Origin: Taiwanofungus camphoratus
Lineage: Eukaryota > Basidiomycota > Agaricomycetes > Polyporales > Taiwanofungaceae
Length of the DNA stretch: 64,000 bases
Direction of reading: 5' to 3'
Assembly: GCA_003999685.1 (NCBI GenBank)
Contig: CP021223.1
Span: 682,001-746,000, forward strand
A model generated the notes under the pieces. It made no database searches. It was not told the origin of the DNA and was given only the letters and a program-made list of their open reading frames with translations. Below, one piece after another: positions 41,740 through 54,131 of the stretch (position 1 is its first letter; each line of letters starts with the position of its first letter). Made by a program: the position numbers and the translations under genes.

Positions 41740-43504
41740 TGATACGACCTAGGGGACCCTGGTACCTAGGGAGTGCTCCGCAACGTGGCTGGGGGTAGTG
41801 TGATAACTGTGAGGGTGTGAGGGTAGGAGCTACAACCTGTATGATACCGGGAAACCTGTATGTCTTGTTTTTGTAAGTAGGGGAGTAAGGGGTCAAGGGT
41901 CCTGCACAACAGGATCTTGTTCCTAAGTGCTATACTATCCCTAAGGCCTTGCGAGGCCCTCCGAAGTACACGAAGTCCTTCGAGATTCTGCGACGTCCTT
42001 CGAAGTTTTAGCTAAATCGCGCGAGCTGACTTCGTAGGCTGTATAGAGTTAGGGAGCAATAAGCCAATGGACTATAATTTCTACTAAGCGGCAGAGGGTA
42101 CGAGACTGCTGCGAAGTCCTTTTAGCTAGAGTTAGCTAAAGGGTATAAGGCTTAGAGGTTTGTTAGAGCGAGGTGGGCGAGGTTTGGCTGGCGTAGGAGA
42201 CTTGTAGGAGAGGTCAGATGGTTCGGAGAGCTAATACTTGGAATAGGAATGAGGGAACGAGGTTGCTGGAAGCTCTGAAGTGTCTGATGACGCCGAGGTG
42301 TGGGTCGGAGAGTTCGAGGGCGTAGAGAGATGTACTATAGCCTGTAATGAAGGCTATGGGGGAGTCGTAGGGTTATTCGTAGGACGTAGGGATGATGCAA
42401 CGTGAGCCTAAGGGTATAACTAAGGCGGAGGCCCACCGGATAGGTGCTATAAGAGGTGCTGAAGGGCACGAAGTCACGGCGACTTCGTAGATCGTAGTGC
42501 GTAGTTCGGGAAGCGTAGACGTAGTTCGTAGATATATCGCGAGCGTAGACGTAGTTCAAAGGTACTGAAACGGAGCTGGGGTGGAGACTTAGGGACCTTG
42601 GGACCGTTCCTAAGGTTGTACTCGCGGCGCTTTCCTGAGATCGGAGCTACAGGGGAACTAGTATTCCAACGAGAGAAGCGTGCACTGAGGGGTCTCTCTT
42701 GTACATAGTAAACTACCTCTGACTAAATAGGAGAGCGTGAGGTGAACTAATCTTGCGCGAAGTGATCCTTACGAGTCCGAAATGTGTACTAAAACGCATG
42801 GACTCCGAAGTGAACACGAGGGGGATAGGAACTAATTAGGAACTGAAACAGGGGAACTACGAACGGTAGAAAGGTGACCAACTTCATTCACGAGGGCGGG
42901 ATGACTATCCGAGAGCAGCCATGCGCCGTGATCACCTATCTTAGCGGGCTAAGAGCGCACAAAGTTCTTAGCAGCGGGACTTGGCCTAATCGGGGCAGGA
43001 GGTGTCCTAACTGGGTGGAGGGTCATATGGGTACGCCCTAGGATGACCTTATGGCATAGGATCGAGACCCATGGGGGTGCACAAGGCTTCCTAAGTCCAA
43101 CTTCCGGAACTTCGGACCGTTTCGGAGCCTATCGGAGGTAGCTGCAATCACAAGAGCTAGGAGAGACTTAGCTAAGACTTCTTAGCTAAGCCCGGGATGA
43201 GTGACGTTGTAGATAGGACCTAGATCCAATGGAACAGTATGGGAGGGCCGGCAGTGTCCGATAGTGGACTTAGCAGGAGTTAGGGACTTCGCGTCTAGCA
43301 TTCGAAATCTCGTAGCACCTCGTGTGACTTCGCAAGACTTCGTAGGGTGTTAGGAGGGTTTAGGAAGGAGAGGGGGCGTTAGGAACTTTATAGGAACCTA
43401 TCCCTCCTGTCGTAGGCTGTAGGAGAGTCTTAGAGTGGTCGGTTGGGGGATTAGAAAGCTCCTAAAATCGCGATTCGGGGGCCAGGAGGCTACGGGACTC
43501 ATCA
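41740..43504 (-). repeat. 3' LTR (left copy), 1765 bp
   Basis: Starts TGATACGACC and ends GACTCATCA, giving TGAT...ATCA inverted ends. Matches the right copy over its whole length. Rich in CTTCG/CGAAG and GACGTAGTTC-type short motifs. Confidence 0.93.
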
Positions 43505-43541
43505 CCTCCTCCCTATTGAAATCCTGACTGTCCTCAGTCAG
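43505..43541 (-). promoter_or_regulatory. Polypurine tract and adjoining hairpin
   Basis: On the element's strand the bases just before the 3' LTR read AATAGGGAGGAGG, the expected polypurine primer for plus-strand DNA synthesis. Directly upstream is a perfect 7-bp hairpin CTGACTG-TCCT-CAGTCAG (43524-43541 on +). The module recurs at 47022-47058. Confidence 0.8.
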
Positions 43542-43629
43542 TGTGCGCGACCGTGGGAACTTGTAGCCTATCGCGTCCGATCTGCGAAGCGGGCGATATC
43601 CTGATAGAAGCTAATTGTGGGTGCCTCTT

Positions 43630-43671
43630 ATCTTTTTCTCCTTTCTCCCCTTTTGCCTTTCTCTTCCCCAT
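43630..43671 (+). promoter_or_regulatory. Pyrimidine-rich leader before the antisense start codon
   Basis: An almost pure C/T run lies immediately 5' of ATG 43673, a common feature of fungal promoters and transcription starts. It supports real plus-strand transcription here. Confidence 0.5.
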
Positions 43672-43672
43672 C

Positions 43673-45050
43673 ATGTTCGACGATATGGACTCTGATGGTG
43701 TTGGCCTAGCTCACAGCGATGTCCTGGTGCTCCTCGATTCTCGTCCGGAGGGCGTAGCGGAGGCCGAAGATTACCTGCGGTGGGCGAGGAACTTAGGACG
43801 TCGTGTGGTACGTACCCTCCTCGATCGCTCGATACATCGTCTTCACTGCGTTATAGGGTAACTGGCGGGTCCTGTCCCAGGCTTCGAACGCTCCCGCCGA
43901 TCCTACCTTAGAGGCCGCCATCGTCGAAGGTTTGACGGCGATCCTCCCTCTCGCGGACTCGTCGTGGATCTCGTGGGCTCGCACCGGCTTTCCTCAGTTC
44001 GCTGCTATGCTTCAAGAGCGAGACGCACAGCGCGAACTCGCCCGTGCGACCGAACGACTTCGTGTGGAGGCGGTCGAGCGCGCTGCGCTTGAACGTGCTG
44101 CCCAACTTGCGGCTTCGTCTTCTGCTCCTTCGCCGGCTCCTAGTCGTACCTCCTCGCGTACTCGTCGTCCCTCAGCTCGGGCCAAGGCAGCGGCTTCTAC
44201 TCGCGCGGCTTCCCAGGCCAGCTCGATCATGGCCTCCGTTTCTAGCGGCCAAGTTGGTGAACTCGCCTCGTCCACTAGTTCGGGTGTCTTCGTAGGGGTC
44301 CCTCCTACTCCGGGGAAGGACGCTGCGAAGGCGAAGGCTCCTCCGACGCCCGAAGCCCTGGCTAACATGGCGAAGGCGGCGGAGCATAGGCGAACTCATG
44401 CGAAGGTGAGTGCACGTCCTTTTCGTGACTGTTCGCGGCTTATCATTGCTACCTAGTGCGATCGCTGCAGCACCTACACCGCAGACTTCGAGTGCGAACT
44501 CCCCGCGGGCGCCGTGAAGTGTGGTAAGTGCCTGCGAGAGTCGCAGGGGTGTTATTGGGGCGGATTCTCCGTAGACGGTAAGGAGCGCGGCGTGCGCGTT
44601 TCGAAGCGTGGTAGGGCTTCTCGTGCCCTCGTTATCGCGACATTGCTGATGTTAGGACGTTCCCTAGCTGCGGGCCAACCTCCTCAGGTGTCCCCGCCTC
44701 GCGCCCACGAGTCCAAGAAGGCGAAGTCGACCCCTGCGCCTACGATGTCGCTCGAGGCCTCGCTGGCCCTTAACGGCGCCGAATACTTGGACGGCCTCAC
44801 CCCTGCGCATCAAGCCGTTGTCGAAGGCCTCTGGTATGACCGCGCGATGGCCGAGAGTCGCGCGATGCGTCTCGAAGACTACATCTCGGGGCTCTATCGT
44901 GCCGAAACCGCCCTAACCGGTCGTACGCCTGCGCCGCTCGACTTGAGCTCTCTCCCCCTTCCTCGCCGTCGCGTCGCCGCCTCCTCTACCGATCCTGGTC
45001 CCTCTGGTGAGTCCGAGCAGGATGAGGAAGATGCCGAGGCCGAGGTTTAG
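43673..45050 (+). CDS. Antisense accessory coding region of the LTR element, Zn2Cys6-like cysteine cluster
   Basis: Between pol and the 3' LTR, on the strand opposite gag-pol, three open stretches (43673-43861, 43932-44456, 44514-45050) lie one after another with splice-like sequence between them. The first begins MFDDMDSDGVGLAHSDVLVL. The second is an Arg/Ala-rich helical and Ser/Ala-rich stretch (ARATERLRVEAVERAALERA). Near 44455-44560 is a cluster of six cysteines spaced C-x2-C-x8-C-x8-C-x2-C-x6-C, close to the fungal Zn2Cys6 DNA-binding layout. The last stretch contains LTPAHQAVVEGLWYDRAMAE and ends in an acidic tail (EQDEEDAEAEV). Composition and the pyrimidine leader favour a real gene. 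Function unknown; DNA or RNA binding is inference from the cysteines. Confidence 0.55.
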
Positions 45051-45582
45051 AAGGTGGGGGGTTCGTAGTTCGTCATCTCGCCCGTTCCGTATCTGTCGCA
45101 CCAACGTGCTGTATTCTCTCTCGTTGCGCGTCCCTTTGCTAGGGACCTTTTCCAATATGTGTACAGTAGTCTGAATAAAGCGGACGCAAACGTCGTCCTT
45201 GTGAAAAGGTTCCTAAGTGTGTGAAGTAACCAAACAACACAGCGAAGAATTAGAAGACTTAGGGGGATAAAATGCGCTCATTTAGGCTCAGTAAATCATC
45301 ATGGCCTTGAAGGGCTTAAGGCCCCTCGCGCAATCTTCGCTCCGCTCGGCGTTTTAGGAGCTTTTTAGAACGATATCGCGACTTCGTGAGTTGAATCACT
45401 ATAGTAAAAAGTAGGAGATGTTGTAAGTAAAAATTCGTAGACATTCGGAACTTCGTAGCTGTCAAACTGAGTGGGGGCTTGTTGGGGAAAGTAAAACATG
45501 ACCAAAAGGTAAGCGAAAAGTAAAATGGACGTAGCGTAATCTTAGCTAAAGTCGGGGTATCGTCGATTGCTCCTCTGATTCT

Positions 45583-48500
45583 TTAGTGAGCTTTGGATGG
45601 ACTAGAGCCGGACTTAGGAGAGTAGGGATACGATCCTAGTTCTTCGTCATCGCCTTGGGTGGTAGTCAGCTCTAGTTCGCGAAGTCGCTCCGTCGACACG
45701 TCCAAGAGTTCGGTAGGAAGTTCGAGGGCTTTTCGCGCTAAGTAGGGGATGACTCGGAAGGCTGCCGTAGGCCTGTCGAGTACCGAACCATCCAATTCGC
45801 ATAGGATATAAGCACCACCTTTGTTCCTAGATACTACGAGTACTGGGCCGAGGTAGCGAGGTCGCAGCTTCCGATTTAGGGACTTTTCTATCTGCGTGTT
45901 GCGAATTAGTACTAAATCGCCCTTTTCGAAGTTGAAATCGTGGATGGTGTGCTTATGCTTCTCTTCGAATCGCAGAGCAGCTTGTCTTCGCGCTTCGTAG
46001 ACCTTCGAATGTAGTTCCGCTATCTGAGTCACCCACTTTTGCAATGCGATAGCTCGACGTGCGATAAGATCGGTCGTGGATAGCATAGAAGACGGAGGAG
46101 GAAGGATATAGGTGGCCTCTACGACGTCCAAAGGGATAACAGGGTGGGTGCCAGTGACTGCGAAATAGGGCGAACATCCCATGCGCTTTCGAGTCGTGAT
46201 CCTTTCGGACCAGAAGACTGAGTACGTTGCCTGAGACCATTTAGACTCTTCGCCATCCACGGCCTTGAATAGAGCCTGCCTAACATCGAAGTGAGGCCTC
46301 TCCACCAGTCCGTTGGCACGCGAATTGTACCCGCTAATTCGGATGTGTCGTAGCTGGTACTTCTTCGCTATGTAGTTCGTAGCTTTTACGAAGGGAGCGC
46401 CGTTGTCCGTGACTATCTCCGATAGCGCACCCCACCTACAAACAAAGTCTTCGAAGAGCCATTCTGCCAAAGCTTTAGCCGTCTCCTTGCGAAGCATCCG
46501 AAATTCGGGGTACTGGGTTAGAGAACACCGGCCTTGCACCAAGTACCTAAATCCGTTAGAAGGGGGCATATGCATGGTATCTATATGAACCTTTGCGAAG
46601 ATCGGAGCAGGCGTAGCGACCGTAGGAGGGATTAGGATCTGCCGCACTTGGCGAATCTGGCATAGGTGGCAGCTTCGAACATACCAGGCAATGTCGATAT
46701 GATGGTAGGGCCACCAAAACCGCTCTGAAATCAGCACCTTCGTAGCGTGTATTCCTCGATGCGCGACTGCATCGTGACATTCTCGGAGGATTCGTAGACG
46801 ATCTGCCTGCTTAACAACTAGTTTGTGAGCTCCTTGTGGATCTTTGCGCCATAGTATGTCCTCATCGAGGAAGAATAGAAGACAGTATTTTACGAAACCT
46901 TCGTATTCTGCATCCGGTAGGTTGGCAGGTCTCGCGAGGCTTCGTAGGAATTTTGCTACTAAGTCAAGTCTTGCGTCAGCTTCCTTGGCCATTTCGGATC
47001 TTGGGACGGTATCGTAGCTCTCCTCCTCCCTATTGAGACCTTGGCTGTCCTCAGCCAACTCGGAGGCGAAGGTTGGAGCTATCGGAGGTGTGGGTGTTGT
47101 GATAGGAATGTTAGAGGCGAATTCGTAAGGGAATAGGGTAGAAATCGATGGTATAGGATGGGAAGGGGGGGCTTGGATGTGATGTAGAAACGAGTGCATT
47201 TTGTCTATCCAGTCTTCGAAGTCTTCTTCGCTGCTCTCTTCTTGATCTCCTGGCTGGGGGGTTCGTCTTGATAGTCCATCTGGTCCATGCATCGTACCTG
47301 GTACATGTACTAGGGTGAAATGGAAGGTTAGAATCGATACGATCCAGCGATTTATACTCGCGCTGGGTGCGATGTCCGGATTTTGCAACATCCCTTTGAT
47401 ATAGCGTGCGTCCACTTCCACTATAAGGTTCCTGACTCCGATTAGGTAGATTCGTAGTACGCGAAGTGCTCGAAACAATCCGTAGATCTCTAACTTCGGT
47501 TGCGAGAACCTCCGCTCGCGATCATTTAGGGTGATGGATCCGAAACGATTGTAGAATCGGACTTTAGGGTTGTCCTCATCGCATTGGCAAAGGTGATAGC
47601 CAACTGCAATATAGGAGGTGTCAACCGCTAAGATCACGGGCGCACCTGACAAATAGTTAATGGATCGGAGAGCTGGAAAGGACAGCAAAGCATCCTTAAG
47701 GTCCTCTTGCGCTGCGATTTGCGCTGGACCAAATTCGAAGGGTACCGCCTTTCGCGTTAGGCGTACTAAGGCATCTGCACGATGCGCGAAGTTTCGGATG
47801 AAGATACGGACCACTCCAATGGTTCCTAAAAAGGCTCGAACGTCAGATAGGGTCGCACAAGGTCCCCAGTTGCGTATGGCTGCAACACGAGACTCGTCCG
47901 GTAGGCGACCTTCTGGAGTACACCGATGCCCCACAACGGTGATTTCGCGGGCAATTAGAATGCTTTTAACTCCAGAAAAGGTACCTCCTGCGTAGCGCAT
48001 GCGTGTGACTATCCTATTGAGGTTCGTAAAATGTTCCCAAACAAACTTTCGAATGCCTGGGTTCTCCGAAATAGGCACGAGATCGTACGAACTTTCAGGG
48101 CCTTTGACCGGAACATCGTCGATATAGGGAACCGTTAGGTGAGGAATTTCGGGCTGTAGGATGTGCGTAACATCATCGTGGAAGATAGGGACCGAGTTGG
48201 TCCATCCCATAGGTAGAGTGACCAATCTCATAGCTCCGAAAGGTGTTTGAAATGTCGTAAGATCGCGCGAAGTCTCCGCTATCAAGCGTTCATCGTAGCC
48301 TACATATAGATCCAACATAGCACCACAAGGTCGTCCTCCGAACTGTTCTGCGAGGTGTTCGGGAGTCGGGGGAACGCCTGAGTGTTGAATCGTGACAGCG
48401 TTTAGGGGTTCCAGACTATGTACAAGGCGTAGGGACTTTCCGTCTTTCTTCACCACACAAAACCATCGTGAACGATAGGAAGAATTTGAAGGTTCGTAGA

Positions 48501-49437
48501 CCCCAGCTGCCATCTTCTTTTTGATGATTGCGCACACTTCGTTGTAGATTCCGGGTGGGATAGGAATGTTCTTTTGTACCCATGGCGTGTGCGGTACTAC
48601 CGGAAAGTCGATAGGAGGGAAGTACTCCGGCTTGAAGCACCCTCTTTCGGAATCATTCCAAGCGAACGCATCAGCATGCAGGGTCATAAAGTGATGTAGG
48701 AGGTCCCTCTCTGCTGGTTGTAGGAAGTCTCCACTGTGTAGCTTGTCCGTGAGATCGTGCCGTTCTCGCGTATATCGCAAAGTAGGTTCGAAAGGTGGTG
48801 GAGTCGGTGATAGGGTAGGCATCGTTGCTAAAGGGTCGCCTTTAATTTCGCGAATGATTCGGAATCGTTCGTCCAAAGCTCCCAGAATAGGGCGAGTCTT
48901 CAGCGCTACAGGCTTGTACTTCTTTTTCGATGCTGCAAATGTAGGAATAGGGGAAGAATCTGACAACTTAGGAAGGGATACCATCGGATTAGGAGCAAGG
49001 GAGGGTCTTCGGGCTGACTTCGTGACCTTCGTAGCGTTCCTGGGACCTGGAATGGGGATAGAGGATATGTCTTTAGAGGCGGAAAGCGAAAGCATAGGGA
49101 GAGAATTCGGATTATCGTGTGAAAGGAAGGGAGCCTCGTGCGGTGTTGCTGCTGCTAGAAAGCCAGATAGCCACCTAGTATGATCAGCCGGACCTTCCGA
49201 GACTTTCGAAGTTTCGCTAAAATAGAGAGACTGCAGATAGCTAGACACAGAGTTAGAGACTGATAGATAGAGCGCAGGAACAGAATTGTTATCTGCCGCA
49301 TTTACAGCAGCGAAAGACACGATTTTAGGGGTATCGGATTCATACTCAACGACCAGGGCGACCTCTCCTTGATTTCTCAAATCCTCGAAATCTAAAAACC
49401 CGATCGTAAATGATTCGAAGAGTTCGCGTGGGGGCAA
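45583..49437 (-). CDS. LTR element pol frame: RT, RNase H, integrase
   Basis: A 1284-codon open frame. In order: an N-terminal linker; RT with SRWFCVVKKDGKSLRLVHSL, PFGAMRLVTLPMGWTNSVPI and the active site YIDD at 48115-48126; connection and RNase H (PVILAVDTSYIAVGYHLCQC, LIVEVDARYIKGMLQNPDI); a linker carrying the second PPT-like module; integrase with the HHCC zinc site (HRGIHATKVLISERFWW, SCHLCQIRQ), the D,D,E core (KVHIDTMHM, IVTDNGAPF, SRANGLVERP) and a C-terminal GPF/Y-like module (KLRPRYLGPVLVVSR). RT-RNase H-integrase order defines Ty3/gypsy. It overlaps the end of gag in the -1 frame. Confidence 0.92.
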   Translation of the reverse strand: MPPRELFESFTIGFLDFEDLRNQGEVALVVEYESDTPKIVSFAAVNAADNNSVPALYLSVSNSVSSYLQSLYFSETSKVSEGPADHTRWLSGFLAAATPHEAPFLSHDNPNSLPMLSLSASKDISSIPIPGPRNATKVTKSARRPSLAPNPMVSLPKLSDSSPIPTFAASKKKYKPVALKTRPILGALDERFRIIREIKGDPLATMPTLSPTPPPFEPTLRYTRERHDLTDKLHSGDFLQPAERDLLHHFMTLHADAFAWNDSERGCFKPEYFPPIDFPVVPHTPWVQKNIPIPPGIYNEVCAIIKKKMAAGVYEPSNSSYRSRWFCVVKKDGKSLRLVHSLEPLNAVTIQHSGVPPTPEHLAEQFGGRPCGAMLDLYVGYDERLIAETSRDLTTFQTPFGAMRLVTLPMGWTNSVPIFHDDVTHILQPEIPHLTVPYIDDVPVKGPESSYDLVPISENPGIRKFVWEHFTNLNRIVTRMRYAGGTFSGVKSILIAREITVVGHRCTPEGRLPDESRVAAIRNWGPCATLSDVRAFLGTIGVVRIFIRNFAHRADALVRLTRKAVPFEFGPAQIAAQEDLKDALLSFPALRSINYLSGAPVILAVDTSYIAVGYHLCQCDEDNPKVRFYNRFGSITLNDRERRFSQPKLEIYGLFRALRVLRIYLIGVRNLIVEVDARYIKGMLQNPDIAPSASINRWIVSILTFHFTLVHVPGTMHGPDGLSRRTPQPGDQEESSEEDFEDWIDKMHSFLHHIQAPPSHPIPSISTLFPYEFASNIPITTPTPPIAPTFASELAEDSQGLNREEESYDTVPRSEMAKEADARLDLVAKFLRSLARPANLPDAEYEGFVKYCLLFFLDEDILWRKDPQGAHKLVVKQADRLRILRECHDAVAHRGIHATKVLISERFWWPYHHIDIAWYVRSCHLCQIRQVRQILIPPTVATPAPIFAKVHIDTMHMPPSNGFRYLVQGRCSLTQYPEFRMLRKETAKALAEWLFEDFVCRWGALSEIVTDNGAPFVKATNYIAKKYQLRHIRISGYNSRANGLVERPHFDVRQALFKAVDGEESKWSQATYSVFWSERITTRKRMGCSPYFAVTGTHPVIPLDVVEATYILPPPSSMLSTTDLIARRAIALQKWVTQIAELHSKVYEARRQAALRFEEKHKHTIHDFNFEKGDLVLIRNTQIEKSLNRKLRPRYLGPVLVVSRNKGGAYILCELDGSVLDRPTAAFRVIPYLARKALELPTELLDVSTERLRELELTTTQGDDEELGSYPYSPKSGSSPSKAH
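47022..47058 (-). promoter_or_regulatory. Internal copy of the polypurine tract plus hairpin (candidate central PPT)
   Basis: Matches 43505-43541 at about 31 of 36 bases, including an identical 15-base purine/pyrimidine core. The hairpin here is TTGGCTG-TCCT-CAGCCAA, perfect again, with two compensatory base-pair changes against the 3' copy. It sits inside the pol frame, between RNase H and integrase. Confidence 0.6.
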
Positions 49438-52325
49438 CTATGATGATGGGCTGGTAAGAACTTTTGACGTCCTCGAGGCATCGTAGGGATGGTCGCGACT
49501 TCGCTCGTGTTCGGGCATACGATCGTGATGGTCTGCTCCTCGTTTCCGAAGTTCTTAACCACACTCTCGGTTACCACATCGAAGGGTCGGCCTAGAAGGA
49601 TATCGTAGGAGGGATTGCGTATGACGTGTATCTGTAGATACAACACGATGTCGCCTACTTGGAACGAGACATTTCGAACCAGTCCTAAGGAACGGTCAAT
49701 ACTGCCATTAGCCGACTGCATATTTAGCTGCACGGAAGGGTCGTAGATTAGTCCTAAGGCATGACAGACTTGCTCTGACATCGCAACCACTTGTGAACCA
49801 GGGTCCACGATGCATTCGATTCGCTCTTTGTTGTCAATTAGGGCTTCGATAGAACGGATAGAATTCGAGTCGCGGGCTACTATGATTTCGGAGGGTTCTT
49901 CCTTTCCGGGTACGTGTCGTAAGTACGTTTCGTAGGGGTCTGGAATGATGGTCGAACCAGGGACAAGGGGTTCACCATGGCACGATAGTTCGGAGGTTGC
50001 TAGCGTCGTTTTAGAAGCGAGATCGTCTGAGAGTTCCGTAATTTGAGCCATATGAGTAGCCTTAGGATCCATAGGCACACGTTTAGGGGTGATGGCTTCG
50101 CGATATCGCGCACGAACATCCGGGGATATAGATAGTAACTCCTCAGGCGTTAGTGTAACCACTGGTGTCCTCATAGATCGCGCGAATATTTCCTCTGTAA
50201 GCTTCTCCTGATGAACCGGTGTGATCGTCTTATAGGCTACGTCCTTGCCCTTGTCTGCTGTAGGCTTCGGAGCTGCTGCGAAATTTCGAAGATTCGGAGG
50301 TGCGTAAGTAGCATCTCGAGCATTAGCGAAAGGATGTACTGGTGGAGTGGGCGGTGGAATGGCTGCCTGTGATGCGGGTTGGGCTGGTACGTTAGGTGTA
50401 GACGAGGCATGCTCCGATGAGTTCGTGGGCGGATCGGACGCATTCGCAGGCTTCGGAGGCGAAGGCGCTGAATTAGAAGGATAGTTGGATCGCCTTAGAA
50501 TGGTAGGAGGGGTCTGGTTCTGCGTCTCTGCCACTGGGGCATCTTGGTTAGCAGGGGGATCCACTACCGGATGTCGATCGTGTCCTATCGGAGGTGCGTT
50601 GGCTATGGGTGGGTTTCTAGGATCAGACTGCGCATTAGGAGCACCCTGCCTTCTGCGCTGGGGTACTTCCACACCATCGAAGACTTCGCGACGTCTCCGA
50701 AGTTGGTAAATCTCGTGTTCTAAAGCGGCTATACGATCCTCGGCAGATAGTGAGAATGCAGGCACATTTAGGCAATTGTCGATTTCGAATAGGAGCTGTG
50801 GGGAGGAATTCGTGCCATTTCGTCGATGATATTCGTAAAGCCTATCGCGAATTGTACGTCCTGGGATCGTTCTGGGTACGAAATTTCCATTTGGCAGCAC
50901 TATCTTTCCATCTGGGTTGCGCTTGCACTTGCCATCCTTGATGTCTTGCTCAATGTGCTTGCAACACCTAGTGCAGCAGTCCAAGTCCCCGCAATAGTGA
51001 CAGTACTGGCCTTCTACATGAGTGTGCTCGCCGCGCGAGCTGTCCAATCGAGGGGGTCGCTGGTTCGCAAGAACAGGAGCTAGCGCACTGGTTACGGACT
51101 TCGTGAGGATCTCTGCGAACATCTGTAGATCCTCTATCTTTAGCGATGAGCCCCCCACAGGCACGGCAGTGGTCGAAGCAGTTACAGTCGTAGCAGAGGT
51201 AAGAGTTGTAGAAGTACCAAGGAGTACGAACTTCGCTGCGCTATGTAGCTGGTCCAAGGTGTAGGGATCATCGGGTAAGTGATCAGGGAACTTTAGCTGT
51301 AACCTAGTAGACACGTGAGCCCATAGCGAAGGCTGGAAGGCCCTCGCGAAAGCACGGCTTTGCTCAATGGTAGACAACCTATTCTTCGAAATTAGATACT
51401 TCGTGATGGCATAAAACTCACGATAGAAGCTTCCTAAGTCTGCCGCATTGTTGATTCCAATTCTAGCACGTTCTCCTATCAACTGATCCAAGTCGGACAT
51501 AGACCACATTCTATCGTCCTCTGTGCCTGGGTAGAGGCTTCTAATCTCCTTCTTGAAGTCTTCGTAGGTCTTCGTGACATCGGAACACTCAGGGAGGGAC
51601 TCCCATAGGTCCGAAACATCGATAGGAGGGTAGCGAGTAGTCCAGTGTTTCTTCGTCGCCTCATCCGCTATCTGGCAGCGGACAAAAAGTGACTCTAAGT
51701 CCTGGAAATACCTTCGGATGGTCCTAGGCTGGTCAGGATCGAAGGTGGGGGATGTACGATCTCCTCGAGGTGGCATGAGTGGAGGTGCGTTCATGGTTGA
51801 CACAGAAATAGGATTTAGGGGATTAGCTAAAATGGGTGCGGTCAAAGATGGGTTCGATGCTGAGTTGATGCTAGCTGAAGAAGATTGGGTCGTAGAAGCG
51901 TCGGCAAGTGTAATAGAAGGAATCGGAGGGGAACGCGAAGCTGATGGGAGTGTAGAGGATAGCTGAGGGGATTCCGGTAAATGGACTAAGATAGGGTCAG
52001 ACGCTGAAGAAGGACCACTTTCTTCGGAGGTGTTAGGAAGCTCAGGGGACGTGGACTGAGGTTCGAAGTCCTCAATTGGTGAGTCTTCGGACGTGGTAAG
52101 CGTGTCTAGAGACCCTTCGAAAAGAGCCTCGAAGTCGGGGGTCGATTCGGAAGATTCGAGTGTAGAAATGATATCGGAGGGGATAGTCGTAGGTGTTCGC
52201 AAAGAGGTGCTTCGTGGAAGGCCTGCTTGAGTATAGTAACGATAGCCGACCTGAAAGAACTCGGATAGTAACTGATCGCTGTTTCTCGGAGAGGACTGGT
52301 TAGACGTAGGATGATCTGAAGGCAA
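49392..52325 (-). CDS. LTR element gag and protease frame
   Basis: A 977-codon open frame from ATG 52325 to TAG at 49392-49394. The N-terminal 190 residues are Ser/Pro-rich; a capsid-like helical region follows (RTIRRYFQDLESLFVRCQIA, TRYPPIDVSDLWESLPECSD, LGSFYREFYAITKYLISKNR, LKFPDHLPDDPYTLDQLHSA). A Cys/His-rich patch with CHYCGDLDCCTRCCKHIEQD may bind nucleic acid. After a Pro/Asn-rich linker comes an aspartic-protease region: IECIVDPGSQVVAMSEQVCH, with the second-half strand SYDILLGRPFDVVTESV. Gag ending in protease, with pol in the next frame, is known in some gypsy lineages. Confidence 0.88.
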   Translation of the reverse strand: MPSDHPTSNQSSPRNSDQLLSEFFQVGYRYYTQAGLPRSTSLRTPTTIPSDIISTLESSESTPDFEALFEGSLDTLTTSEDSPIEDFEPQSTSPELPNTSEESGPSSASDPILVHLPESPQLSSTLPSASRSPPIPSITLADASTTQSSSASINSASNPSLTAPILANPLNPISVSTMNAPPLMPPRGDRTSPTFDPDQPRTIRRYFQDLESLFVRCQIADEATKKHWTTRYPPIDVSDLWESLPECSDVTKTYEDFKKEIRSLYPGTEDDRMWSMSDLDQLIGERARIGINNAADLGSFYREFYAITKYLISKNRLSTIEQSRAFARAFQPSLWAHVSTRLQLKFPDHLPDDPYTLDQLHSAAKFVLLGTSTTLTSATTVTASTTAVPVGGSSLKIEDLQMFAEILTKSVTSALAPVLANQRPPRLDSSRGEHTHVEGQYCHYCGDLDCCTRCCKHIEQDIKDGKCKRNPDGKIVLPNGNFVPRTIPGRTIRDRLYEYHRRNGTNSSPQLLFEIDNCLNVPAFSLSAEDRIAALEHEIYQLRRRREVFDGVEVPQRRRQGAPNAQSDPRNPPIANAPPIGHDRHPVVDPPANQDAPVAETQNQTPPTILRRSNYPSNSAPSPPKPANASDPPTNSSEHASSTPNVPAQPASQAAIPPPTPPVHPFANARDATYAPPNLRNFAAAPKPTADKGKDVAYKTITPVHQEKLTEEIFARSMRTPVVTLTPEELLSISPDVRARYREAITPKRVPMDPKATHMAQITELSDDLASKTTLATSELSCHGEPLVPGSTIIPDPYETYLRHVPGKEEPSEIIVARDSNSIRSIEALIDNKERIECIVDPGSQVVAMSEQVCHALGLIYDPSVQLNMQSANGSIDRSLGLVRNVSFQVGDIVLYLQIHVIRNPSYDILLGRPFDVVTESVVKNFGNEEQTITIVCPNTSEVATIPTMPRGRQKFLPAHHHSCPHANSSNHLRSGF
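49395..49401 (-). promoter_or_regulatory. -1 frameshift heptamer G GGT TTT at the gag stop
   Basis: On the coding strand the gag frame reads G GGT TTT then TAG. This fits the canonical X XXY YYZ slippery pattern directly before the gag stop, and pol is open in the -1 frame across the same bases. Programmed -1 shifting between gag and pol is known for this family. Confidence 0.72.
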
Positions 52326-52344
52326 TGAAATCTTGACTGCTCCC

Positions 52345-52361
52345 CCTCGCGGTGGGCTCCA
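52345..52361 (-). promoter_or_regulatory. Candidate primer-binding site
   Basis: Four bases inside the 5' LTR the coding strand reads TGGAGCCCACCGCGAGG. TGG start and position fit a tRNA primer-binding site; the tRNA was not identified. Confidence 0.45.
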
Positions 52362-52365
52362 GAAA

Positions 52366-54131
52366 TGATACGACCTAGGGGACCCTGGTACCTAGGGAGT
52401 GCTCTGCAACGTGGCTGTGGGGTAGTGTGATAACTGTGAGGGTGTGAGGGTAGGAGCTACAACCTGTATGATACCGGGAAACCTGTATGTCTTGTTTTTG
52501 TAAGTAGGGGAGTAAGGGGTCAAGGGTCCTGCACAACAGGATCTTGTTCCTAAGTGCTATACTATCCCTAAGGCCTTGCGAGGCCCTCCGAAGTACACGA
52601 AGTCCTTCGAGATTCTGCGACGTCCTTCGAAGTTTTAGCTAAATCGCGCGAGCTGACTTCGTAGGCTGTATAGAGTTAGGGAGCAATAAGCCAATGGACT
52701 ATAATTTCTACTAAGCGGCAGAGGGTACGAGACTGCTGCGAAGTCCTTTTAGCTAGAGTTAGCTAAAGGGTATAAGGCTTAGAGGTTTGTTAGAGCGAGG
52801 TGGGCGAGGTTTGGCTGGCGTAGGAGACTTGTAGGAGAGGTCGGATGGTTCGGAGAGCTAATACTTGGAATAGGAATGAGGGAACGAGGTTGCTGGAAGC
52901 TCTGAAGTGTCTGATGACGCCGAGGTGTGGGTCGGAGAGTTCGAGGGCGTAGAGAGATGTACTATAGCCTGTAATGAAGGCTATGGGGGAGTCGTAGGGT
53001 TATTCGTAGGACGTAGGGATGACGCAACGTGAGCCTAAGGGTATAACTAAGGCGGAGGCCCACCGGATAGGTGCTATAAGAGGTGCTGAAGGGCACGAAG
53101 TCACGGCGACTTCGTAGATCGTAGTGCGTAGTTCGGGAAGCGTAGACGTAGTTCGTAGATATATCGCGAGCGTAGACGTAGTTCAAAGGTACTGAAACGG
53201 AGCTGGGGTGGAGACTTAGGGACCTTGGGACCGTTCCTAAGGTTGTACTCGCGGCGCTTTCCTGAGATCGGAGCTACAGGGGAACTAGTATTCCAACGAG
53301 AGAAGCGTGCACTGAGGGGTCTCTCTTGTACATAGTAAACTACCTCTGACTAAATAGGAGAGCGTGAGGTGAACTAATCTTGCGCGAAGTGATCCTTACG
53401 AGTCCGAAATGTGTACTAAAACGCATGGACTCCGAAGTGAACACGAGGGGGATAGGAACTAATTAGGAACTGAAACAGGGGAACTACGAACGGTAGAAAG
53501 GTGACCAACTTCATTCACGAGGGCGGGATGACTATCCGAGAGCAGCCATGCGCCGTGATCACCTATCTTAGCGGGCTAAGAGCGCACAAAGTTCTTAGCA
53601 GCGGGACTTGGCCTAATCGGGGCAGGAGGTGTCCTAACTGGGTGGAGGGTCATATGGGTACGCCCTAGGATGACCTTATGGCATAGGATCGAGACCCATG
53701 GGGGTGCACAAGGCTTCCTAAGTCCAACTTCCGGAACTTCGGACCGTTTCGGAGCCTATCGGAGGTAGCTGCAATCACAAGAGCTAGGAGAGACTTAGCT
53801 AAGACTTCTTAGCTAAGCCCGGGATGAGTGACGTTGTAGATAGGACCTAGATCCAATGGAACAGTATGGGAGGGCCGGCAGTGTCCGATAGTGGACTTAG
53901 CAGGAGTTAGGGACTTCGCGTCTAGCATTCAAAATCTCGTAGCACCTCGTGTGACTTCGCAAGACTTCGTAGGGTGTTAGGAGGGTTTAGGAAGGAGAGG
54001 GGGCGTTAGGAACTTTATAGGAACCTATCCCTCCTGTCGTAGGCTGTAGGAGAGTCTTAGAGTGGTCGGTTGGGGGATTAGAAAGCTCCTAAAATCGCGA
54101 TTCGGGGGCCAGGAGGCTACGGGACTCATCA
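52366..54131 (-). repeat. 5' LTR (right copy), 1766 bp
   Basis: TGATACGACC...GACTCATCA, nearly identical to 41740-43504 (about five differences and a 1-nt length change seen by eye). Confidence 0.93.

Follow-up and report, generated by a model that had tools for sequence, protein, structure and literature searches.

A lineage of gypsy retrotransposons in the genome of Taiwanofungus camphoratus carries, as comparisons between its copies indicate, a third gene that is conserved and whose introns have been kept through many rounds of copying. The representative described here lies in a 64,000 nt stretch of contig CP021223.1 (hereafter the window), where positions 43673 to 45050 almost certainly constitute an intron-bearing protein gene antisense to gag-pol, as judged from its reading frame, splice sites and pattern of substitution. 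The first-pass annotation of this DNA had interpreted the region as an intron-bearing gene of the element, with a domain close to the fungal Zn2Cys6 type and a product of regulatory type that might control the element or its host. At the level of sequence, the conserved antisense gene with introns has stood up to the analyses reported below, and the proposed closeness to Zn2Cys6 has not.

Structure of the element and its antisense gene

The host genome comprises 33.2 Mb in 15 contigs. Within the window, the gypsy element sits on the minus strand between two LTRs that begin with TG and end with CA (ends checked), and the 4-base direct repeat CCGT is present on both outer sides (Table 1). The LTRs are 99.7% identical and the element is therefore young; with 68 close matches to exons 3 and 4 of the antisense gene in the genome, it is also abundant. 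Matches above the Pfam cut-off (PF13650, PF13975, PF17917, PF17919 and PF17921) place a protease, an RNase H and an integrase zinc domain between the LTRs, as is characteristic of Ty3/gypsy elements. Pfam reports no match to RVT_1 or rve in pol at E ≤ 1, and the reverse transcriptase and integrase core thus appear to be divergent. The stop-to-stop frames of gag-protease and pol overlap by 46 bases (49392-49437) in different frames, an arrangement that perhaps serves a programmed frameshift. Four bases inside the 5′ LTR end, at 52351-52361, the minus strand reads TGGAGCCCACC, which is likely to be the tRNA primer site.

The space between the end of pol and the 3′ LTR, given earlier as roughly 2 kb, measures about 2.1 kb and houses the plus-strand gene. 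The best model for this gene has four exons, three short introns and 406 codons, and extends from an ATG at 43673 to a TAG stop at 45048-45050, exactly the start and end of the plus-strand coding region that the first-pass annotation had placed opposite gag-pol. The pyrimidine-rich leader that it described before the ATG was likewise found (C or T at 46 of 49 bases, 43624-43672), and the splice-like sequence that it saw between open stretches corresponds to introns 1 and 2. The third intron (GTAGGG..CTAG) was absent from that description. In the window copy this intron is in frame and free of stops and so is easily mistaken for coding sequence. Among 55 aligned copies, its branch-like site TTGCTGATGT and its AG are present in every row and its GT donor in 52. 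The first bases of the leader region form a polypurine tract on the minus strand.

Three candidate features were considered and set aside. An alternative in-frame acceptor for intron 1 at 43880, used in our first model, was dropped in favour of 43856 because both subfamily B and the lone homologue L076 (see below) place the beginning of exon 2 there, with a W aligned. A single exon 3 of 197 codons was divided into exons 3 and 4 because of the comparison with subfamily B and the near-neutral ratio of 44611-44667. An AATAAA at 45174 was rejected as a poly(A) signal, since it is conserved no more strongly than its surroundings.

Table 1. Features of the window element and of the gene model antisense to gag-pol (window positions; pN/pS with codon bootstrap interval where given).
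Feature	Position	Strand	Remarks
3′ LTR, TG...CA	41740..43504	-	carries dispersed heptamers CGAAGTC/GACTTCG (8) and TAGCTAA/TTAGCTA (9)
Leader and presumed promoter side of antisense gene	43505..43672	+	
Exon 1, 45 codons	43673..43807	+	pN/pS 0.19 (0.08-0.56), no stop in 55 rows
Intron 1, 49 nt, GTACGT..TATAG	43808..43856	+	GT donor and TTATAG acceptor in 55/55 rows
Exon 2, 183 codons, Ala/Arg-rich	43857..44405	+	selection scored from 43881
Intron 2, 51 nt, GTGAGT..CTAG	44406..44456	+	GTGAGT in 55/55 rows; acceptor CTAG (46) or CCAG (9)
Exon 3, six-cysteine domain C-x2-C-x8-C-x8-C-x2-C-x6-C-Y	44457..44610	+	44457-44585 pN/pS 0.11
Intron 3, 57 nt	44611..44667	+	pN/pS 0.91 (0.37-2.09) when read as codons
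Exon 4, basic stretch, C-terminal part, acidic tail, TAG	44668..45050	+	
pol open frame (RNase H, integrase H2C2)	45583..49437	-	convergent with antisense gene
gag-protease open frame	49392..52391	-	
5′ LTR	52366..54131	-	

Copies, subfamilies and constraint

At least 40 copies at 96-100% identity emerge from a DNA search in which 40 of 77 candidates were scored. The frame at 44457-45047 has 114 matches in the genome, a few of which are pieces of one gene; 68 are at ≥70% identity (close) and 46 are more distant (divergent). For comparison of copies, 59 were aligned with the window to give 60 rows, some of which are not independent because they derive from tandem or mirrored copies. The tandem array holds four copies of the element region at C10:627069-659974, evenly spaced at about 10,468 bases. 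The mirrored pairs, which have identical scores, are found at C3:1638230 and 1645470 and at C5:1507637/1509486 and 1519784/1521609, and look as though they came from inverted duplications.

In 46 of the 60 rows the reading frame is intact from start codon to stop and each of the six splice dinucleotides is in place; one further row lacks only the donor of intron 3. Clean loss of an intron was seen in none of these 60 subfamily A rows. The region 44457-45050, intron 3 included, shows no insertion or deletion in any of them, and indels in introns 1 or 2 are confined to one row, L057, which is a diverged mix. Retention of the frame among copies and an excess of synonymous change between them had been proposed as checks on the first-pass annotation, and both were observed.

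Five rows that are truncated or mixed with flanking sequence (L034, L055, L057, L059 and L069) were set aside for the pN/pS analysis, which sums over pairs of the remaining 55; its intervals come from a codon bootstrap, which is only a guide because the pairs share history. The spliced coding sequence gave a pN/pS of 0.17 (0.14-0.22; 398 codons), with a stop in the spliced frame in nine of the 55 rows. The ratio is similar in exon 2 (0.18) and in exons 3 and 4 together (0.17), and exon 1 and the cysteine domain fit the same pattern (Table 1). Since the first intron 1 acceptor was used for scoring, the overall figure omits eight codons, which on their own give 3.62 with almost no synonymous change and a bootstrap interval that runs from 0.13 upward with an undefined top. 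Other frames of the same exons range from 1.0 to 2.4; the minus frame that shares third positions reaches 0.23-0.26, but contains 201-345 stops. The non-coding stretch 45060-45560 yields 0.46-0.82 over six frames, with wide intervals, and the method is therefore biased downward somewhat, though far less than the signal of the gene. When the same eight copies were used for both genes, the antisense gene gave 0.21 and pol 0.17.

Nucleotide diversity at the three codon positions, measured over the 60 rows, shows the third-position excess expected of a coding sequence in exon 2 (0.039/0.037/0.093) and in 44457-45047 (0.031/0.0145/0.065), and more weakly in exon 1 (0.049/0.031/0.059), whereas the non-coding stretch 45051-45581 is flat (0.061/0.054/0.052). 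Pairwise diversity is 0.080 in intron 1 and 0.078 in the leader, and intron 2 is the most variable of the ten segments measured (0.102). The corresponding values are 0.046 for exon 1, 0.056 for exon 2, 0.037 for 44457-45050 and 0.056 for the non-coding sequence before pol.

The association of the gene with its lineage was examined through pol. In a search with 300 residues of pol, 131 of 173 candidates were scored, and the 152 matches listed out of a larger number were merged into 109 lineage loci; at 93 of these the antisense gene lies beyond the 3′ end of pol, on the opposite strand and within 5 kb. Seen from the gene, the match to exons 3 and 4 is antisense to and beyond a pol within 6 kb in 59 of the 68 close cases and in 34 of the 46 divergent ones; for nine close and ten divergent matches no pol is listed within that distance, and two divergent ones have a pol in another orientation. 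Among other gypsy elements, represented by the best 150 RNase H loci (150 of 370 candidates scored, with no overlap with the 109), the gene occurs at two, and neither of the gene copies concerned (C1:3711214 and C14:623978) has its own lineage pol within 6 kb. In L101, L102 and L103, three gypsy elements from outside the lineage, the pol frames of 1403, 1667 and 1336 codons end 487, 247 and 559 bases from the LTR and thus leave too little room for such a gene.

Fungal relatives were sought within the genome that holds the window, and the viral contigs contained no relative of the cysteine domain or of the pol piece. A second subfamily, B, encodes an antisense protein of 386 residues that is only 24% identical to the 406-residue protein of subfamily A, compared with roughly 80% and 60% identity in two parts of the pol piece; on these values the antisense protein diverges faster than pol between A and B. 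Despite this distance, A, B and L076 share three introns at aligned positions in phases 0, 0 and 1. Subfamily B has a fourth intron, and the introns of this subfamily appear canonical, CTAAY- or CTGAY-like sites preceding the acceptor. Because intron 3 varies in length in B, the frame without splicing is open in one copy (L077) and closed in another (L078). The 15 copies of subfamily B1 are partly broken, with stops in six rows, and give a pN/pS of 0.53 (0.41-0.68) in the gene's frame (0.33 in exon 1 and 0.90 in exon 2a) versus 0.64-0.95 in their other frames. Constraint within subfamily B copies therefore appears weak and has less support than in A.

L076, at C3:1164016-1165346(-), is an intact, open homologue of 385 residues that shares 39% identity with A (375 aligned positions) and 29% with B (343). 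A DNA search gave one match, so that by this measure L076 is single-copy, and its third intron reads best as GC-AG. Searches of the surrounding 10.5 kb for gag and pol gave nothing better than E 0.29, and internal repeats are absent, such that neither gag, pol nor repeat was found within about 4 kb on either side; long open frames lie upstream. L076 may be the donor of the element gene, or an element gene domesticated by the host, two histories that look alike here because three sequences cannot root a tree. A remote match (26%) to exon 2 alone is present at C7:741136-741597, in an open frame of 195 codons, with no cysteine-domain exon nearby among the matches listed.

The cysteine domain and repeated motifs

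The cysteine spacing C-x2-C-x8-C-x8-C-x2-C-x6-C is as first described and holds in all five aligned domains, in which C-D-R-C, C13, G18, C22, C25, G31-C32-Y33, G35, S38 and G41 are invariant. The canonical Zn2Cys6 domain (Zn_clus, PF00172) has the spacing C-x2-C-x6-C-x5-12-C-x2-C-x6-8-C. In both, six cysteines are arranged as two halves that each open with CxxC, the first as C-D-R-C, and the basic stretch and acidic tail elsewhere in the antisense protein add to the likeness. The second spacer, however, is x8 rather than x6, and none of the five domains matches Zn_clus in Pfam at E ≤ 10, even though the same profile finds 26 places in the genome as a positive control. None of those 26 lies within 5 kb of the 114 matches to exons 3 and 4. 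We therefore rejected membership in the Zn2Cys6 class, and the closeness suggested earlier is not supported.

Pfam gives no match above chance for the antisense protein, DNA-binding domains included, and a PDB profile search produced no convincing match (one chance match, E 0.94). A single-sequence AlphaFold model of 44457-45047, in which intron 3 was read as coding, was uninformative (mean pLDDT 42.9). On these results, the six cysteines probably make up a metal-binding domain that forms a class apart and is not a filed Zn2Cys6 domain.

Repeated words in the LTRs and leaders were analysed in an exploratory, post hoc manner in the two subfamilies and three control families. The subfamily A LTR contains CGAAGTC eight times (0.28 expected) and TAGCTAA nine times (0.44 expected), and in neither case were any of 200 shuffles as extreme. 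In a leader-LTR stretch of subfamily B the enriched word is instead GAGTGGC, which occurs eight times (0.12 expected; 0 of 200 shuffles), and in three further B-type stretches it occurs 7, 11 and 14 times (0 of 100 shuffles each); these four stretches (L099, L104, L105 and L107) are related by descent and about 72-96% identical in aligned pieces. L106, fetched as B-type, is A-like in its words (TTAGGAA and TAGCTAA). An A-family LTR fragment (96%) at L099:1500-1852, beside the B leader-LTR stretch, reads as a nested or abutting insertion.

The LTRs of L101, L102 and L103, which at 501-571 bp are much shorter than the 1765 bp of A, hold no significant word (27, 28 and 11 of 200 shuffles as extreme), and neither do the insides of these three elements (17, 24 and 68 of 100 shuffles). 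A fourth such element (L100), which has no LTR pair in the piece examined and was left out of the shuffle test, has a best word at p 4e-4. Among 28 flanking segments of the same length, one reaches p 1e-8, and its word is a poly-A. Within A itself, no word in the non-coding stretch 45051-45582 reaches significance (22 of 200 shuffles were as extreme) and gag-pol is also enriched, for CTTCGAA (0 of 100 shuffles); part of the A signal may therefore be compositional. Copies of GAGTGGC outlast CpG-free, GC-matched heptamers in four of six pairwise comparisons (p < 0.05; the pairs overlap), with no such excess in the other two. In general, the motif arrays hint at a role for a DNA-binding regulator, as motifs not tied to the antisense protein itself.

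Possible functions and comparison with known systems

The survival of the introns can be explained if the RNA that is copied during retrotransposition is the gag-pol strand, on which the introns would run backwards and remain unspliced. Introns should disappear from a gene that passes through its own spliced RNA, and their retention here presumably results from copying of the other strand. We propose that the gene has a promoter to itself, close to the U3 edge of the 3′ LTR, and that the antisense transcript is spliced; translation would then yield a nuclear protein, about 406 residues long, carrying the metal-binding six-cysteine domain, the basic stretch and the acidic tail. This protein would bind short motifs repeated in the LTR or leader of its own element, and binding would raise or tune transcription of the element or protect it from silencing. 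It would thus work like retroviral accessory regulators or the VANC proteins of plant VANDAL transposons, without being assigned to either group. The reading towards which we lean, with modest confidence, is that the antisense protein binds DNA and regulates its own element. We are more doubtful of a fuller version, which we put forward tentatively: an element-borne, sequence-specific transcription or anti-silencing factor that co-diversifies with the LTR motifs between subfamilies, as VANC does with its motifs in plant DNA transposons, with a single host-kept copy possibly turned against the element.

Several other explanations were weighed against a regulatory role. Cysteine-rich basic proteins often bind nucleic acid in particles, and the conserved protein could work in the particle or integration complex (nucleocapsid-like, in nuclear import or in target choice) rather than in transcription. 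Its pN/pS is similar to that of pol and constraint among copies suggests a protein that helps its own element, both of which such a role would accommodate; a separate antisense transcription unit would, however, be an odd route to a structural protein, and the acidic tail and motif arrays fit a nuclear DNA-binding protein better. Neither of these points is decisive, and we regard a structural role as unlikely. The gene might alternatively be cargo, captured from the host with L076 as the donor and serving the host or neutral to the element. L076 suits this proposal in being single-copy and open, with the same three introns and no gag, pol or repeat within about 4 kb, and antisense capture would keep introns. 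Unused cargo decays, however, and the A gene is as constrained as pol and is present in subfamilies whose proteins are only 24% identical; L076 may instead be a domesticated element gene. Cargo therefore seems to us a poor explanation.

An equally poor one, in our estimation, is a repressor or copy-number brake, in which the antisense transcript or protein dampens the element and spares the host. Antisense transcripts can form double-stranded RNA with the genomic RNA, as proposed for plant elements (PMC7264820), but a pure RNA effect would not retain codons, frame, introns and splice sites, and since the element is young and abundant any brake must be leaky. The first of these objections leaves room for a brake that acts as a protein. 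The trivial explanation, a chance open frame with splice-like sequence and no gene at all, was rejected on the codon-position, frame and between-subfamily tests: pN/pS, the shared introns, presence throughout the lineage and the many intact copies refute it at the sequence level and leave it almost no probability.

Several properties of the lineage render the function of this antisense gene testable. It supplies dozens of young copies and a clear spliced model under constraint similar to that on pol, together with a candidate metal-binding domain and candidate target motifs that differ between two subfamilies. Controls are present in the same genome, in the form of other gypsy elements that lack the gene and one lone homologue.

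Comparable arrangements exist in other systems. HBZ of HTLV-1 is an antisense-encoded, spliced nuclear regulator and a bZIP protein; it resembles the present case in that its antisense RNA is read from the 3′ LTR side, as we predict for the fungal gene, and differs in its bZIP, of which the antisense protein has none. Laboratory retrotransposition reporters use an antisense-intron trick, and the element looks like a natural version of these, with introns that lie backwards on the genomic RNA. VANDALs of Arabidopsis are DNA transposons. Their anti-silencing protein VANC, whose binding was demonstrated by ChIP-seq and EMSA, is likewise encoded by an element-borne, intron-containing accessory gene, and short motifs that differ between related subfamilies are dense in the non-coding DNA of those elements, according to the account in PMC5735166. 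Here too, short motifs that differ between subfamilies are over-represented in non-coding DNA of the element, as seen post hoc in two subfamilies and with one of the two A stretches examined negative. The likeness is one of arrangement, with no homology claimed, between the VANC described in that account and an antisense gene known from its sequence. In the mussel element MchSLE-1 the 3′ LTR drives antisense RNA, but the antisense ORF described there is only 67 residues long (PMC10974842).

The closest counterparts are antisense genes of LTR retrotransposons in the same location. In fungi, Boty (BcGypsy1) of Botrytis cinerea carries the antisense gene brtn (Zhao et al. 2011, as cited in PMC7264820 and PMC8365987), which by these descriptions lies in the same region of a fungal element. 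A survey of fungal gypsy elements that includes basidiomycetes marks an 'add. ORF' of unknown function in its Figure 3, and its text, which uses neither 'antisense' nor 'opposite', gives no orientation (PMC2864245). The literature covered, which includes few subscription papers, yielded only the known antisense cases and this 'add. ORF' for a fungal gene of such a kind. The aORF-3R genes of plant Ty3/gypsy elements (Grande gene23, RIRE2 and Retand TRP28) are antisense between pol and the 3′ LTR, are kept in most copies and are conserved about as well as other element proteins, and the Grande product is nuclear with a promoter of its own (PMC7264820). The function of antisense gypsy genes is called unknown in PMC7264820 and in the text of PMC11963269. 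The fungal gene has the same place and orientation, is retained at most lineage pol loci among the matches listed (93 of 109), and within subfamily A is conserved about as well as pol. It differs from the plant genes in having no Pfam domain, and hence no TRP28 match, and in its three to four introns and six-cysteine domain; the Retand paper (PMC11963269) does not use the word intron in its main text. The first-pass annotation had called an antisense protein of regulatory type in a gypsy element unusual, a judgement to be moderated, as antisense ORFs in the same place are known from plant Ty3/gypsy elements and fungal Boty (PMC7264820). Antisense accessory ORFs are thus an established feature of such elements, and the intron-rich, six-cysteine gene described here is a variant of them.
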